The notes under the pieces: generated by a model
The model's database searches: none
Told to the model about the DNA's origin: nothing
The model's input: the letters and a program-made list of their open reading frames with translations, nothing else
NCBI GenBank assembly: GCA_949299505.1
Contig: CASGAS010000011.1
Coordinates: forward strand, 1-33,333
Origin: an uncultured Eubacteriales bacterium
GTDB taxonomy: Bacteria > Bacillota > Clostridia > Oscillospirales > Acutalibacteraceae
DNA length: 33,333 nt
Reading direction: 5' to 3'
Shown here: one piece after another, positions 13,547 through 19,637 of the stretch
Numbering within the stretch: position 1 is the first letter of the stretch
Layout: each line of letters starts with the position of its first letter
Position numbers and translations under genes: made by a program

Positions 13547-14311
13547 ATGCTTGCCAAACGGATTATTCCGTGTCTGGACGTTAAGGACGGGCGCGTGGTC
13601 AAGGGCGTCAGCTTTGTCGGCCTGCGGGATGCGGGCGACCCGGTTGAATGTGCGAAAGCGTATGACAAAGCCGGCGCGGACGAGCTTGTGTTCCTGGATA
13701 TTACGGCGACGCACGAGGGACGCGGCACAATGGTGGACATCGTTTCCCGCGTAGCCGATTCCATCTTTATCCCGTTTACGGTGGGCGGCGGCATTCGCAG
13801 CGTGGAGGATTTTTGGCAGCTTTTGCGCGCGGGGGCCGACAAAATTTCCGTCAATTCCGCGGCGGTGCGCAGCCCGCAGCTTTTGACGGACGCCGCAACC
13901 CGCTTCGGCAGCCAGTGCGTGGTGTGCGCGATTGACGCCAAGCGGCGGGAAAACGGCGGTTGGGAAGTGTATCTCAACGGCGGCCGGCTGCCGACGGGCC
14001 TGGACGCCGTGGAATGGGCGCGCGAAGCTGCACGGCGCGGCGCGGGGGAGATTTTGCTGACGAGCATGGACTGCGACGGGCAGAAGACGGGCTATGACCT
14101 GGCGCTTACGCGAGCGGTTTCGGAAGCGGTGGATATTCCCGTTATTGCCTCCGGCGGCGCGGGGACGCTCGAGCATTTTTATGATGCGCTGACCGTCGGG
14201 CGCGCGGATGCGGCGCTTGCGGCGTCGCTGTTCCATTTTAACGAAATTCCCATCCCGGTTCTCAAAACGTATTTGACAAAAAAAGGCGTTCCGGTTCGGA
14301 CGACCCTTTGA
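13547..14311 (+). CDS. hisF: Imidazole glycerol phosphate synthase, cyclase subunit
   Basis: This 254-residue beta/alpha barrel forms imidazole glycerol phosphate and AICAR with HisH. Catalytic Asp11 ([14 protein letters not shown]) and Asp130 (CAIDAKR) are present, as are the phosphate-binding FTVGGGIRS and VIASGGAG loops. Length is standard. AAAGGAGGGG (13531-13540) lies upstream of ATG at 13547, at the end of hisH. Confidence 0.97.
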
Positions 14312-14409: not shown

Positions 14410-15624
14410 ATGAAAGCCGTTGTTTTTGCAGGGGAGGGCGCGCAATCCGCCCACGGGAAGCCGCTGTTTACGGAAAAAGGCGTTTGTGTCCTGTCCGGCG
14501 CGCAGCTTGACCCGGCGTTTTTGGCGTCGCTTGGCGGCGCGGCCGCGCTGTGCGCGGCGGGCAGGCAGGTCGGCATCGCTTTCGACGGGCGGCCGCTGTC
14601 CCACGCCGTCGGCCGGATTCTTTCCGGCGCGATGGCCGCAAAAGGCAGCCGGGTCTACGCGTTTGGGGACGGCTTTTTGTCGCAGATGTATTTTTTCACC
14701 TCCTTCTGCTCGCTGCAGATGGGTGTGTTTGTCGCCTATGAGCACGGCTGTATACGGCTGTATTTTTGCGGTCCGGGCGGGCTGCCACTGCCGTTGGAAA
14801 CGGAAGCGGAAATCGAGCGGCGCTGTCAGAATGCGGATGCGGGCAAGGTGCTGCCCGATGCGTGCCGGGAGGTTTCCGACATGGCCGGGATGCACGCCAT
14901 GTACCTGCGCGCGCTCATTCGGGAGGCGGGCGGCGGGCTTGACCGGCAAATCGCCGGCGTGCAAAGCGCCAGCGACCGGGTGCAGACCCTGTTTGAAGAC
15001 GCGCTGTACCGAACGGGTGCAAAGCTCGGCGACGAGGTCCTTTTCCGCTTTGGCGCGAACGGCACGGCCGTCTGTGCGTATCACCGCGGCTGCGGCCAGA
15101 TTCGATACGACCGCCTGCTTGCCGTGTGCTGCTGCGCCGAGCTTGCGGCCGGGCGGGATTTGGCGCTGCCGGCGGAGGCGCCGTACATGTTGACGCGCCT
15201 TGCGGAAAAAAGCGGGCGCCGGGCGCTTCGCTACGGCTTTTCGCCGCCCTGCGGCCGGGAGACGGCCGCACGCGCGCTTGCAAAGGACCGGCTGTATCTG
15301 CGCGACGCGCTGTTTTTGAGCATGCGGCTTTTGTCGGTGCTGCAAAGCGCCGGAAAGCCGCTGGACCGGCTTGTGCGGGAGCTTCCGCCGTTTGCCGTGC
15401 GAAAGCGCACAATAGCCTTGCCGTTCCCGATGGAGGAGCTTTTTGAGCGCCTTCCCGAAGCGCGTCTTGTCGGGCGTGCGGCGGAGCTTGTTTCTAAGGC
15501 GGGCGCGGTGCGCGTCATACCGGGGAAAAACGGCGGCCGCGTGACGGTGCTTGCGGAAGCGCCTACGCCGAAGGCGGCTGAAAAACTCTGCGCCGGGGTG
15601 GAGGCGCGTTTGCACAGGCATTGA
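14410..15624 (+). CDS. Phosphohexomutase-like protein with degenerate active site
   Basis: This protein is 404 residues from ATG 14410; alternative in-frame starts are TTG 14308 and ATG 14332. The fold pattern follows alpha-D-phosphohexomutases (PGM/PMM/GlmM). VGIAFDGRPLSHAVGRILSG (54-73) matches domain I, LYFCGPGGLPLPLETEAEIE (117-136) matches the segment after the catalytic loop, and LYLRDALFLSMRLLSVLQSA (295-314) fits the end of domain III. VTVLAEAPTPKAAEKLC (378-394) fits domain IV. The key loops are changed: VAYEHG (108-113) replaces TASHNP with its phosphoserine, FGANGT (214-219) replaces the metal-binding DGDGDR, and PGKNGGR (371-377) replaces the phosphate-binding SGTEP loop. Domain II looks shortened. 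It is probably a non-catalytic relative whose function I cannot name. Family reading is by eye. Confidence 0.65.
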   Translation: MKAVVFAGEGAQSAHGKPLFTEKGVCVLSGAQLDPAFLASLGGAAALCAAGRQVGIAFDGRPLSHAVGRILSGAMAAKGSRVYAFGDGFLSQMYFFTSFCSLQMGVFVAYEHGCIRLYFCGPGGLPLPLETEAEIERRCQNADAGKVLPDACREVSDMAGMHAMYLRALIREAGGGLDRQIAGVQSASDRVQTLFEDALYRTGAKLGDEVLFRFGANGTAVCAYHRGCGQIRYDRLLAVCCCAELAAGRDLALPAEAPYMLTRLAEKSGRRALRYGFSPPCGRETAARALAKDRLYLRDALFLSMRLLSVLQSAGKPLDRLVRELPPFAVRKRTIALPFPMEELFERLPEARLVGRAAELVSKAGAVRVIPGKNGGRVTVLAEAPTPKAAEKLCAGVEARLHRH

Positions 15625-15649
15625 CACAAAACGGTTTTCGCGGTATCAT
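15621..15649 (+). promoter_or_regulatory. Near-consensus sigma-A promoter for the RNase J operon
   Basis: TTGACA (15621-15626), a 17-base spacer and TATCAT (15644-15649). The -35 box overlaps the stop codon of the preceding gene. This is the strongest promoter match in the window and probably drives rnj through ftsH. Confidence 0.75.
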
Positions 15650-15764: not shown

Positions 15765-17666
15765 ATGGCAAACACCAACAAAGAAAACAAGAGAGGCTCT
15801 GCGCCAAGGACCGCTTCGCGCAAACAGGCGGCCGGCACGGAGACGGCGCGCCCCGGCCAAAAGGGCGGCGCAAAGGAAAAAAAGACGGCGAAAAAGGACG
15901 TGATGCAGGGCTTTTCGGAGTCCTCGGCCGGAAAGCAGCAGCGCCGGTATTACAACAGCTTGAAAAACAATGCGCGCAAAAACGCGGGCGGCCGCCGGAA
16001 AAAACCGTCCGTCCCGCTGAAGATTGCCTTTTTGGGCGGTCTTAACGAGATCGGCAAAAACATGACCCTTTATGAATGCGGCGGCGATATGCTGCTTGTG
16101 GACTGCGGGCTGGAATTTCCGGACCCCGAAATGCTCGGCGTGGACCTTGTGATTCCGGATTTCACCTATGTGATGGAAAATGCCGACAAAATCCGCGGCA
16201 TCCTCATTACGCATGGGCATGAGGACCACATCGGCGGCCTTGCGTATCTGCTTAAAAGCCTGAATATCCCGGTTTATTCCACAAAGCTGACGATCGGGCT
16301 TATCGAGGGTAAGCTGCGCGAGCACCGCATTTTGGACCGCTGCACGCTCAATGTCGTGAAGCCCGGCGACCGGGTGCAGCTGGGCTGCTTCAACGTCGAG
16401 TTTATCCACGTCAACCACTCCATTCCGGACGCGGTTGCGCTTGCCATCCGCACGCCGGCGGGCACGGTTGTGCAGACGGGCGACTTCAAAATCGATACCA
16501 CGCCCATTGACGGCGGCGTCATTGACCTTGCGCGGCTGGCGGAAATCGGCGAGGAGGGCGTTTTGTGCCTGCTTTCCGATTCGACCAACGCCGCGAAGCC
16601 CGGCTTTACCGAAAGCGAGCGCAAGGTCGGCGAGACGTTCGACGTCCAGTTCCACCGCGCGGGCAACCGGCGGCTTATCGTAGCGACGTTTGCGTCCAAT
16701 ATCCACCGCGTGCAGCAGATTATCAATTCTGCGGAAAAGCTCGGCCGCAAGGTCGCGCTGTCGGGCCGCAGTCTGGAAAATGTGGTCGCTGTCGCGGCGG
16801 AGCTTGGGTATATCCATGTCCCGGAGGGCATTTTGGTAGGCCTCGACAGCATCAATCGCTACCCGCCCGAAAAGCTGGTGCTTATTACGACCGGCAGCCA
16901 GGGCGAGCCGATGTCGGCGCTGTACCGCATGGCGTTTTCCGAGCACCGGCGCGTGGAAATCTGCCCGAACGACTATGTCATCATTTCGGCGACGCCGATT
17001 CCCGGCAACGAAAAAATGGTCGGCCGGGTCGTCGACGAGCTTTTGAAGCTCGGCGCGGAGGTCGTGTATGAAAAAATGTACGACGTCCACGTCTCCGGCC
17101 ATGCGTGCCAGGAGGAGCTCAAGCTGATGATGAGCCTGACGAAGCCGAAATACTTTATGCCCGTCCACGGCGAGCAGAAGCACTTGCAAAAGCATGCGGC
17201 GCTGGCGCGGACCATGGGAATTCCCGAACAGAACATTTTGATTGCGGACGTCGGCAAGGAGGTCGAGCTGACGGACGAAAAAATACGGATTTCCGGCGAA
17301 GTCCCGGCGGGCATGGTCTTTGTGGACGGCAGCGGCGTCGGCGACGTCGGCTCGGTCGTTCTGCGCGACCGCAAGCGGCTTTCCGAGGACGGGATTATCA
17401 TCATTGTCGCCTCCATCGACCGCGAGACCGGCGACGTGCTGTCCGGCCCCGACGTCGTTACGCGCGGCTTTGTGTATGTCCGTGAGTCCGAACAGCTGAT
17501 GGAGGAGTCCAGACGGCTGTGCGAAAATGTCCTGGCGGACTGCCTGGCGCACCACGCCTGTGATTTTTCCACCATTCGCAACCGCCTGCGCGACGAAATT
17601 TCCCGCCTGACCTATGCGCGTACCAAGCGTTCGCCGATGGTCCTTCCTATCCTCATGGGGGTATAA
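15765..17666 (+). CDS. rnj: Ribonuclease J
   Basis: This 633-residue metallo-beta-lactamase/beta-CASP ribonuclease degrades and processes RNA with 5' exonuclease and endonuclease activity. The zinc motif is THGHEDHIGG (149-158). FPDPEMLGVDLVIPDF (118-133), TGDFKID, LLSDSTNA and the C-terminal MPVHGEQKHL follow in the normal order. The first 80 or so residues are an added basic, Lys/Arg/Gly-rich and probably disordered extension before the usual start at LKIAFLGGLNEIGKN. Such extensions could bind RNA or ribosomes. It heads an operon with gdpP, rplI and dnaB, and gdpP begins three bases after its stop. Confidence 0.96.
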   Translation: MANTNKENKRGSAPRTASRKQAAGTETARPGQKGGAKEKKTAKKDVMQGFSESSAGKQQRRYYNSLKNNARKNAGGRRKKPSVPLKIAFLGGLNEIGKNMTLYECGGDMLLVDCGLEFPDPEMLGVDLVIPDFTYVMENADKIRGILITHGHEDHIGGLAYLLKSLNIPVYSTKLTIGLIEGKLREHRILDRCTLNVVKPGDRVQLGCFNVEFIHVNHSIPDAVALAIRTPAGTVVQTGDFKIDTTPIDGGVIDLARLAEIGEEGVLCLLSDSTNAAKPGFTESERKVGETFDVQFHRAGNRRLIVATFASNIHRVQQIINSAEKLGRKVALSGRSLENVVAVAAELGYIHVPEGILVGLDSINRYPPEKLVLITTGSQGEPMSALYRMAFSEHRRVEICPNDYVIISATPIPGNEKMVGRVVDELLKLGAEVVYEKMYDVHVSGHACQEELKLMMSLTKPKYFMPVHGEQKHLQKHAALARTMGIPEQNILIADVGKEVELTDEKIRISGEVPAGMVFVDGSGVGDVGSVVLRDRKRLSEDGIIIIVASIDRETGDVLSGPDVVTRGFVYVRESEQLMEESRRLCENVLADCLAHHACDFSTIRNRLRDEISRLTYARTKRSPMVLPILMGV

Positions 17667-17669
17667 CGC

Positions 17670-19637
17670 ATGACAGCAGGGCAAGCCATACGCACCTATC
17701 CGTTGACCTTTACCGCGCTTGTCGCGGCAGGGGTGTTTTGCGTTGCGACCGCGTTTTTCAGCCTTGTGGCCGCTGCGGTTGAATTTGGCGTGCTTCTGGT
17801 GCTGACGGCTGTTACTGCGGTGCGCATCCGGCGGGATTTCCGCACGATTCGCGCGACGGTGCTGGCATTAAGCGAGAGCTTTACGGCGGAGGAAAATTCC
17901 GCTTTGCAGAATTTCCCGCTTCCGGCCGTGGTGTTTGACAACGCCGATCGCGTGGTCTGGTACAACCTCAAGTTCAAAAACGAGCTTTTGCCGGCCGTTT
18001 CCGCACGCTCGGGGGATGTCCGCCAGTTTACGGGCGGGCTGGGCCTGCAGCAGATTCGCAAAAACGAACGGTTCGATGCGGTTGTCGGCGATAAAGCGTA
18101 TACCGTCTATTTCAGCCACATCCACTGCGCGGGCAGGCAGTCCTATGTTCTTTTGTATGCGGAGGACACGCGGCTTAAGCAGATTGCCCACGCCTATGAA
18201 ATGGAAAGGCCCGCCGTCGCCATGCTGGCCGTGGACAGTGCGGATGAGATTTACCGCGCCTATAAGGAAAGCGAATACGCGGAAATTTCCGCCGACATTG
18301 AGCGGATTACGGAAAGCTGGTTCAACCGGTATACCGGCCTGTTCCGCAAGCTCGGCAGCGGGCGCTTTCTTGCCGTATTCCCGGAAGAAACGCTGCAAAA
18401 AATGGTGGCCGAACGCTTCGAGGTGCTTGCGCTTGTGCGCAAGTATACATACCACGACGCTTCGGTCGGCGTAACGCTGTCCATCGGCGTCGGCCGCGGC
18501 GACAGCCTTTCCGACGCGGAAAGCAACGCCCGGCAGGCGCTGGATATGGCGCTAGGCCGCGGCGGCGACCAGGCGGCGCTTAAAAATGCAGACGAGACCT
18601 ACCGCTTTTTCGGCGGCGTGTCGAAGGGCGTCGAAAAACGGACGAAGGTGCGTTCCCGTGTTGTCGCCTCCGCTATTGGGGAAATGCTGCGCGGCAGTGA
18701 AAACGTGTTTATCATGGGACACCAGTTTTCGGATTTGGACTGCATTGGCGCGGCGATAGGCCTGTGCAAGGCGGCGCGCGACATGGGCGCTTCGGCTTTT
18801 GTTGTGACGGATCCGCACACCACGCTTGCATCGCCGCTTGTGGAATATGCTTCCGGCGCGGGGGCGGCGCAGTGGTTCATTTTGCCGGAGCACGCCCAGC
18901 GCCTGCTGACGGAAAAATCGCTGCTGATTGTCGTGGACACGCACAAGGCGAGCTTTACCGAAGCGCCGCAGCTTTGCGAAAAGGCGGCGCACATCATCGT
19001 CATTGACCACCACCGCAAAACGGTCGATTACATTCGCAACGCCGAGATTTTCTACCACGAACCGCACGCCTCCTCCACCTGCGAAATGGTGACGGAGCTG
19101 CTGCAATATATGGGCGGCAAGCCGTCGGTTACGCCGCTTTGCGCAAATGCGCTGCTGGCCGGGGTGATTCTGGACACCAAGGATTTCGTCCTGCGCACGG
19201 GTGTGCGAACCTTTGAAGCGGCGGCATACCTGCGTTCGCGCGGGGCGGACACCGTTGTGGTCACGCGGTTTTTCAACAGCAGCATGGAAAGCAAAAAGCT
19301 GCGCGGCAAGGTCGTGATGGATGCGGAAACGTACCGCCGGTGCGCCGTGTCCGTCGCCAACATAGACGCGCGTGACGTCCGCGTGATTTGCGCGCAGGCG
19401 GCGGATGAGCTGCTGACCGTCAGCGGCGTGGACGCGTCGTTTGTTCTGTTTGAAACGGATTCGACCGCCAACATTTCCGCGCGCTCCATGGGCGGGGTGA
19501 ACGTCCAGGTTATTATGGAAGCGCTCGGCGGCGGCGGGCACCAGACAATGGCGGCCGCCCAGCTTTCGGATACGACGCTGGCTTCGGCAAAGGAGAAGCT
19601 GCTTGCGGCCATCGACGATTATTTTGAAAATCAATGA
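17670..19637 (+). CDS. gdpP: Cyclic-di-AMP phosphodiesterase, GdpP type (DHH/DHHA1)
   Basis: This 655-residue membrane protein has two N-terminal transmembrane helices (about 11-30 and 33-51) and a PAS-like region. A degenerate GGDEF region follows, with LGSGRFLAVFPE at 228-239. The C-terminal DHH/DHHA1 phosphodiesterase has its metal ligands visible as H351, D355 and D357 in GHQFSDLDCIGAAIG, D423, and DHH at 446-448; GGGGHQ (620-625) belongs to DHHA1. The family cleaves c-di-AMP to pApA and so affects potassium, osmotic and wall homeostasis. Length and domain order are standard. The gdpP-rplI-dnaB order is widespread in Firmicutes and supports the call. Confidence 0.95.
   Translation: MTAGQAIRTYPLTFTALVAAGVFCVATAFFSLVAAAVEFGVLLVLTAVTAVRIRRDFRTIRATVLALSESFTAEENSALQNFPLPAVVFDNADRVVWYNLKFKNELLPAVSARSGDVRQFTGGLGLQQIRKNERFDAVVGDKAYTVYFSHIHCAGRQSYVLLYAEDTRLKQIAHAYEMERPAVAMLAVDSADEIYRAYKESEYAEISADIERITESWFNRYTGLFRKLGSGRFLAVFPEETLQKMVAERFEVLALVRKYTYHDASVGVTLSIGVGRGDSLSDAESNARQALDMALGRGGDQAALKNADETYRFFGGVSKGVEKRTKVRSRVVASAIGEMLRGSENVFIMGHQFSDLDCIGAAIGLCKAARDMGASAFVVTDPHTTLASPLVEYASGAGAAQWFILPEHAQRLLTEKSLLIVVDTHKASFTEAPQLCEKAAHIIVIDHHRKTVDYIRNAEIFYHEPHASSTCEMVTELLQYMGGKPSVTPLCANALLAGVILDTKDFVLRTGVRTFEAAAYLRSRGADTVVVTRFFNSSMESKKLRGKVVMDAETYRRCAVSVANIDARDVRVICAQAADELLTVSGVDASFVLFETDSTANISARSMGGVNVQVIMEALGGGGHQTMAAAQLSDTTLASAKEKLLAAIDDYFENQ

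Follow-up and report, generated by a model that had tools for sequence, protein, structure and literature searches.

A phosphohexomutase homologue without its catalytic loops, probably orphaned from a nucleotidyltransferase fusion, beside RNase J in Clostridia

In Bacillus and Staphylococcus, the phosphohexomutase GlmM acts on CdaA and c-di-AMP, and the vertebrate phosphoglucomutase-like protein PGM5 (aciculin), which is catalytically inactive, offers a precedent for a non-catalytic phosphohexomutase fold in a eukaryotic and unrelated context. Among sugar-1-phosphate nucleotidyltransferases, a non-catalytic member, GMPPA, is reported to regulate GMPPB (PMC11228364); GMPPA is a nucleotidyltransferase paralogue, whereas the gene described here encodes a predicted dead mutase. 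Clostridia, Streptomyces and Sulfuricurvum also carry fused proteins named 'sugar phosphate nucleotidyltransferase', whose C-terminal domain is homologous to our gene product and has the same loop losses. Within the order, these fused proteins mostly occupy the gene place of our gene, before rnj, and our gene differs from them in having neither the nucleotidyltransferase nor the beta-helix. Monoglobus pectinilyticus WP_320691336.1, a 'hypothetical protein', is a further mutase domain that stands alone and has no such loops, encoded immediately before the ribonuclease J gene; at ~17% identity to our protein and with other flanking genes, it represents a separate stand-alone lineage. In the open-access literature, the titles and abstract openings among the matches listed hold nothing about this dead mutase domain, fused or stand-alone, subscription journals and preprints lying outside this scope.

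The gene, here called X, lies in a window of 33,333 nucleotides, the whole stretch of DNA analysed, from an uncultured Eubacteriales bacterium of the Candidatus Fimenecus lineage (GCA_949299505.1, contig CASGAS010000011.1). We consider it likely that X is a non-catalytic binding or scaffold protein, orphaned from a nucleotidyltransferase-helix-pseudomutase fusion and kept by selection. Its features and neighbours are collected in Table 1.

Table 1. Coordinates of gene X, its altered loops and its neighbours in the window.
Feature	Positions	Strand	Basis
hisF, upstream neighbour	13547..14311	+	Pfam His_biosynth
Gene X, stand-alone pseudo-phosphohexomutase, 404 aa	14410..15624	+	ORF, profile searches, predicted model
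Relic of lost nucleotidyltransferase N-terminus, MKAVVFAG	14410..14433	+	Alignment with fused orthologues; disordered segment 1-14
Pseudo-phosphohexomutase domains I-IV, residues 20-404	14467..15621	+	Alignment with fused orthologues, profile alignment, model
Replaced phosphoserine loop, VAYEHG, residues 108-113	14731..14748	+	Alignment; own GlmM has ISASHNP
Domain II contraction	15022..15033	+	About 31 residues of GlmM missing (profile alignment)
Replaced metal-binding loop, FGANGT, residues 214-219	15049..15066	+	Alignment; own GlmM has FDGDADR
Replaced domain III sugar-recognition loop	15244..15309	+	Alignments against GlmM
Replaced phosphate-binding loop, PGKNGGR, residues 371-377	15520..15540	+	Alignment; GlmM has SGTEP
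Promoter-like match, 11/12 consensus bases, end of X ahead of rnj	15621..15649	+	Consensus scan; 2 matches in 5 kb against 1.2 expected
rnj, RNase J; neighbour conserved over longest evolutionary distance	15765..17666	+	Pfam RNase_J_b_CASP, RNase_J_C
gdpP-like c-di-AMP phosphodiesterase	17670..19637	+	Pfam DHH, DHHA1, GGDEF_GdpP

The frame of X opens with an ATG and runs without an internal stop at exactly the coordinates of the original prediction, which had called it an intact phosphohexomutase-like frame. Pfam PGM_PMM_I matches the product at 24.9 bits (curated cut-off 22.5), and PGM_PMM_III, at 13.7 bits against a cut-off of 20.7, is suggestive at most. The top solved chain in a PDB sequence search is a phosphoglucosamine mutase (E 9.3e-5), and with the X-family profile A1, archaeal PGM/PMM is found at E 2.5e-34 and Bacillus subtilis GlmM at 7.7e-30. 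An AlphaFold2 model from an input of 37 sequences is confident (pLDDT 92.3, pTM 0.90), with pLDDT below 50 confined to residues 1-14, and its top solved Foldseek matches are phosphohexomutases (9du5, E 1.6e-21, TMq 0.75; 3pdk, E 2.5e-20); a PGM5 structure with glucose-1-phosphate, 6y8y, is also among the matches. Profile alignment and predicted model thus place X in the four-domain phosphohexomutase superfamily, as had been proposed, and it is evidently a genuine homologue with similarity beyond chance. Its scores lie far below the cut-offs for GlmM: TIGR03990 gives 41.8 bits (E 6.3e-11) against a curated cut-off of 439, and TIGR01455 gives 11.3 bits against 447.55. The genuine GlmM of the same genome (572 bits) is at G000:C43, G000 being the window's own genome. 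In the same assembly, a 792-aa frame (L037, G000:C54, minus strand, about 2-2377) has a phosphohexomutase start in GC-rich DNA (about 0.65-0.70) and then turns CBS-like, by eye, and AT-rich (0.36-0.43); it is probably a chimeric contig or a contaminant.

Set against this GlmM, X shares the four-domain fold and differs in all four active-site loops. The predicted replacement of the phosphoserine, metal and phosphate-binding loops is confirmed, and the sugar-recognition loop, which had not been listed, is replaced too: the genome's own GlmM has GGEQSG there, and its GEQSG aligns to RETAA or to a gap in X. The metal loop reads FGANGTA, every Asp of the three carried by an active enzyme being gone, and the phosphoserine, sugar-recognition and phosphate-binding loops of the enzymes are all missing from X. 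Domain II is indeed cut down, and the rest of it is present in the model. Within the X family, the lowest 3-8% of entropy falls on residues 95-105, 156-169 and 248-260. Residues 107-113, the phosphoserine-loop stretch, vary more than most (82nd percentile of entropy), and the remaining three loops are unremarkable (40th-65th percentile). Because the conserved stretches fall outside the old catalytic loops, the pattern suits a binding surface over chemistry; scaffold conservation could look alike.

It had been implied that X itself lost these loops. That part failed, since the mutase half appears already dead in fused relatives, including those of Actinomycetota and Campylobacterota. Neither an intact phosphoserine loop nor a three-Asp metal loop was found in 43 relative rows aligned within the order (a single split gene supplies two of them, and a few have partial gaps), in 20 class places read out of 54, or in the fused proteins of two Streptomyces, Nonomuraea and Sulfuricurvum; G054, G056, G062, G066 and G078 were left out of this loop reading. 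The phosphate loop is partly recognisable in the wider class, for example as PDSEKP. As the relatives read likewise have no such loops, we reject a recent loss within X; by alignment, the dead mutase half is a standing feature of the fused family that came ahead of the window gene. The fused nucleotidyltransferase/dead-mutase genes on Streptomyces and Sulfuricurvum plasmids (L157 3001-5505, L158 3001-5538, L160 1019-3517) are annotated only as sugar phosphate nucleotidyltransferase.

Relatives of X are usually the C-terminal half of a nucleotidyltransferase/beta-helix protein of about 720-860 aa. A single-protein search matched X in 43 of 79 genomes, its own included, mostly in open frames of about 730-900 aa. 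The 766-aa relative in G012 combines an NTP_transferase match (158 bits), a hexapeptide beta-helix and PGM_PMM_I at 33.3 bits, and its nearest NCBI model is mannose-1-phosphate guanylyltransferase, with a score below cut-off. A second fold, of the fused protein, reached pLDDT 90.3 and pTM 0.70, and its domain packing was accordingly not interpreted. The fused orthologues stand at the same gene place as X, before rnj-gdpP-rplI-dnaB, and X shares their homologous C-terminal domain; alignment with them covers the C-terminus only, plus the first eight residues. The start common to fused orthologues is MKAVILAG, matched by MKAVVFAG in X and MKPVVSAG in its relative G037, and a purine-rich stretch lies just 5' of the X ATG (by eye). 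The nucleotidyltransferase motifs GGxGTRLxPLT and EKP are gone from X, leaving this start as the sole remnant. Because it matches the fused start while the remainder aligns to the C-terminus alone, some 370 residues separating the start from the mutase domain have evidently been deleted in frame in this Candidatus Fimenecus lineage. An assembly artefact is unlikely, as G037, a separate assembly, has the same deletion and neighbours.

We also weighed gene fission with a relocated nucleotidyltransferase. Searches with the lost half (the N-terminal 370 aa of the G012 protein) in five genus genomes without the nucleotidyltransferase, among them the 68% complete G036, returned only matches of 23-38% identity; the same query found 85% identity in the intact G019. 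The best of these matches is GlgC-like, 28% identical over most of the length, and also occurs in intact sisters. The window's own genome yields matches of only 28-38% identity, to GlgC-like and CBS-nucleotidyltransferase proteins and two short ones, of which the GlgC-like and the 294-aa proteins have counterparts in intact sisters. Weak matches of this kind, in part shared with intact sisters, lead us to reject fission for the genomes searched. Elsewhere, the window's genome and G035 hold what by eye resembles a nonulosonic-acid (sialic-/legionaminic-acid-like) synthesis cluster (L150 118-2971, L152 689-7408, minus strand).

Loss of the nucleotidyltransferase half recurs within the genus. A sensitive profile search of 39 genomes, mostly metagenome assemblies and including our own, found X in 24 and not in 15, three of the latter also being incomplete and without a strong rnj hit. 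Judged by motifs, the nucleotidyltransferase is intact in 12 of the 24, where small changes were tolerated (GGxGKRL in G029 and G034; SAD in G026). It is degenerate, half-deleted or gone in 11: degenerate in four (G014, G006, G022, G008), half-deleted in two (G023, G024) and absent in five (G000, G037, G001, G002, G036). The last gene, in G028, is split over contig ends and was placed in neither group. On an RNase J tree, and assuming no regain of lost motifs, the losses fall on seven separate branches, several of them near an intact relative. G000 and G037 cluster with the intact G012 and G019 (100/100), G001, G002 and G036 lost the nucleotidyltransferase separately, and the degenerate G008 sits beside the intact G035; the main groupings of an X-domain tree agree. 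Further afield, G204 and G138 of the class sample keep the beta-helix and have no NTP_transferase match. Stand-alone copies also occur outside the order, upstream of rnj in G094 and its near relatives G128 and G182 and away from it in G166; the Monoglobus protein is 47% identical to that of G094.

Stand-alone copies are kept under purifying selection. Pairwise NG86 dN/dS (w, with bootstrap) is 0.304 for X in the pair G000/G037 (95% bootstrap interval 0.226-0.395), 0.179 in the stand-alone pair G001/G002 and 0.037-0.049 in three f42 pairs (G094/G128/G182), alongside 0.056-0.191 in bootstrapped fused pairs; dS is saturated in G002/G036 and G001/G036. No bootstrap replicate reached w = 1, and all four domains of X fall at 0.25-0.39 in its own pair. 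Copies without the nucleotidyltransferase retain 39-43 of 49 family-conserved sites (80-88%; held-out fused copies, 70-100%). Our own lineage is the least constrained of those compared: X is 63% identical between G000 and G037, RNase J 96%, and dN of X relative to that of rnj is 12.5 there, 1.8 in G001/G002 and 2.0 for the fused sister pair, although one fused pair, G026/G033, comes to about 8. A fold kept open without catalytic loops, under purifying selection, makes selection for a non-catalytic role likely, in keeping with the original prediction.

Pfam confirmed the predicted location between hisHF and rnj/gdpP, with hisH a class-I glutamine amidotransferase (GATase), and also L9 and DnaB in the window. 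The expected position beside rnj is retained in most of the order: in 39 of 47 members, X shares the strand of rnj and lies at most 741 bases upstream, our own genome included and the partial places G062 and G074 and the fragment G028b left out. In the class, it lies within 3.5 kb upstream of rnj in 17 of 54 places (50 genomes, any without a listed rnj scored as non-adjacent), spread over eight other families. As eight genomes of the order and 37 places of the class lack this adjacency, the pairing may be no more than old gene order, and the promoter-like site ahead of rnj means that the two genes may be transcribed apart. The Monoglobus pair has different neighbours on either side. Between the fused gene and rnj of G099 stands a gene for a glycosyltransferase (Pfam Glycos_transf_1, Glyco_transf_4; L127 1222-2412, minus strand). 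Twelve genus members without X have a strong rnj hit, and in 11 an RNase HI-like gene precedes rnj (by eye; Pfam-checked as RNase_H in L083 only), the twelfth locus lying at a contig end. This divergent gene takes X's place beside RNase J in L083, L084 and L086-L094.

Loosened constraint in our own species makes residual decay the main rival: a domain of little use after nucleotidyltransferase loss, heading out as in other genus members. The quicker evolution in G000/G037 (w 0.30; fused sister pair, 0.13) and the 15 genomes without X, most of those with rnj carrying the RNase HI-like gene instead, fit such decay, and this absence marks X as dispensable. We nevertheless find decay unlikely, for w is far below one in all four domains, two species separated by a dS near 1 have both kept the frame open and other stand-alone lineages are under stronger constraint (w 0.04-0.18). 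Similarly improbable is service in trans, with X pairing as an allosteric subunit with another nucleotidyltransferase (GlgC, GlmU or similar) in the manner of GMPPA and GMPPB. The ancestral position in cis to a sugar-1-phosphate nucleotidyltransferase and the non-catalytic, regulatory GMPPA (PMC11228364) would suit it, as would G138, whose own N-terminus is degraded and which has a separate, divergent NTP_transferase gene adjoining X (38.3 bits; L146 4787-5689, plus strand); among the 19 window proteins scanned with Pfam, however, no nucleotidyltransferase was found, relatives of X aside. That X is still an enzyme, its old cleft turned to new chemistry, is scarcely credible. Stretches left unexplained despite their conservation, 248-260 and 95-105 among them, speak for it; against it stand the variable phosphoserine-loop stretch, the loss of all metal-ligand Asp and the failure to recognise a novel conserved acid-base set within the old loops.

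The original prediction had also floated a link to GlmM and c-di-AMP control; in one form of it, a GlmM-like X would bind CdaA or GdpP and tune c-di-AMP. In its favour, most family members have gdpP as the second gene after X, each of the 12 genomes tested for CdaA has it, and the helix equivalent to the one by which GlmM touches CdaA falls in the conserved residues 156-169 (5th percentile of entropy). The contacts themselves are mostly changed. In the B. subtilis complex, Arg126 of CdaA is contacted by GlmM residues D151, E154 and D195 (PMC8573169); the equivalents in X are D157, which is kept, G160 and R201, two of three acidic contacts being lost and one of them turned to Arg. By alignment, the genome's own GlmM is itself without acidic residues at both first-helix contact positions, with a Glu one position off. 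With the interface so altered at these contacts, a c-di-AMP route in the manner of GlmM is unlikely. The genes are also dispersed (cdaA on contig C9, X on C11, glmM on C43), and in Monoglobus and several other families X adjoins rnj without gdpP in the stretch read. RNase J, rather than GdpP, is the neighbour conserved longest; the link is unsupported, and we hold a c-di-AMP partnership of any kind very improbable. An ORF after cdaA that looked YbbR-like by eye had no Pfam match, and its identity was not used.

We therefore return to X as an orphaned, non-catalytic protein. In its fused ancestor, a phosphohexomutase-like domain already dead in catalysis was joined to a left-handed beta-helix and a sugar-1-phosphate nucleotidyltransferase. 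Comparison of orthologues shows that an in-frame deletion, in the ancestor of our species and its closest relative among the genomes compared, took the nucleotidyltransferase and helix and spared the original start with its first ~8 codons. The model predicts that what is left folds into a four-domain mutase, and the substitution rates show it kept by selection. It would serve in a binding or scaffold role, once exerted on its own nucleotidyltransferase and now in trans, and may report to a partner how much sugar phosphate or sugar nucleotide is available. RNase J, beside which X recurs, is the first candidate, and a sugar-enzyme-like partner is not far-fetched, because the degradosome-like network of B. 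subtilis is reported to include enolase and phosphofructokinase (PMC8152036). A bolder generalisation, which we consider quite doubtful, is that stand-alone bacterial pseudo-phosphohexomutases are metabolite-reading partners of RNase J that tie mRNA decay to the supply of sugar phosphates or cell-wall precursors, a role that would retain the dead domain through repeated enzyme loss across Clostridia.

Dead enzyme domains usually persist as regulators of a living partner. Here it is the living half that vanishes instead, on seven branches of a single genus and again in other Clostridia. A gene of this kind may be labelled 'sugar phosphate nucleotidyltransferase' or 'phosphomannomutase' and be neither. 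The lineages form a natural series, from fused and intact through fused with a dead nucleotidyltransferase, half deleted and stand-alone to absent, in which the function of the domain becomes testable, and the frequent adjacency to RNase J offers a first target for a widespread, unexplained domain.
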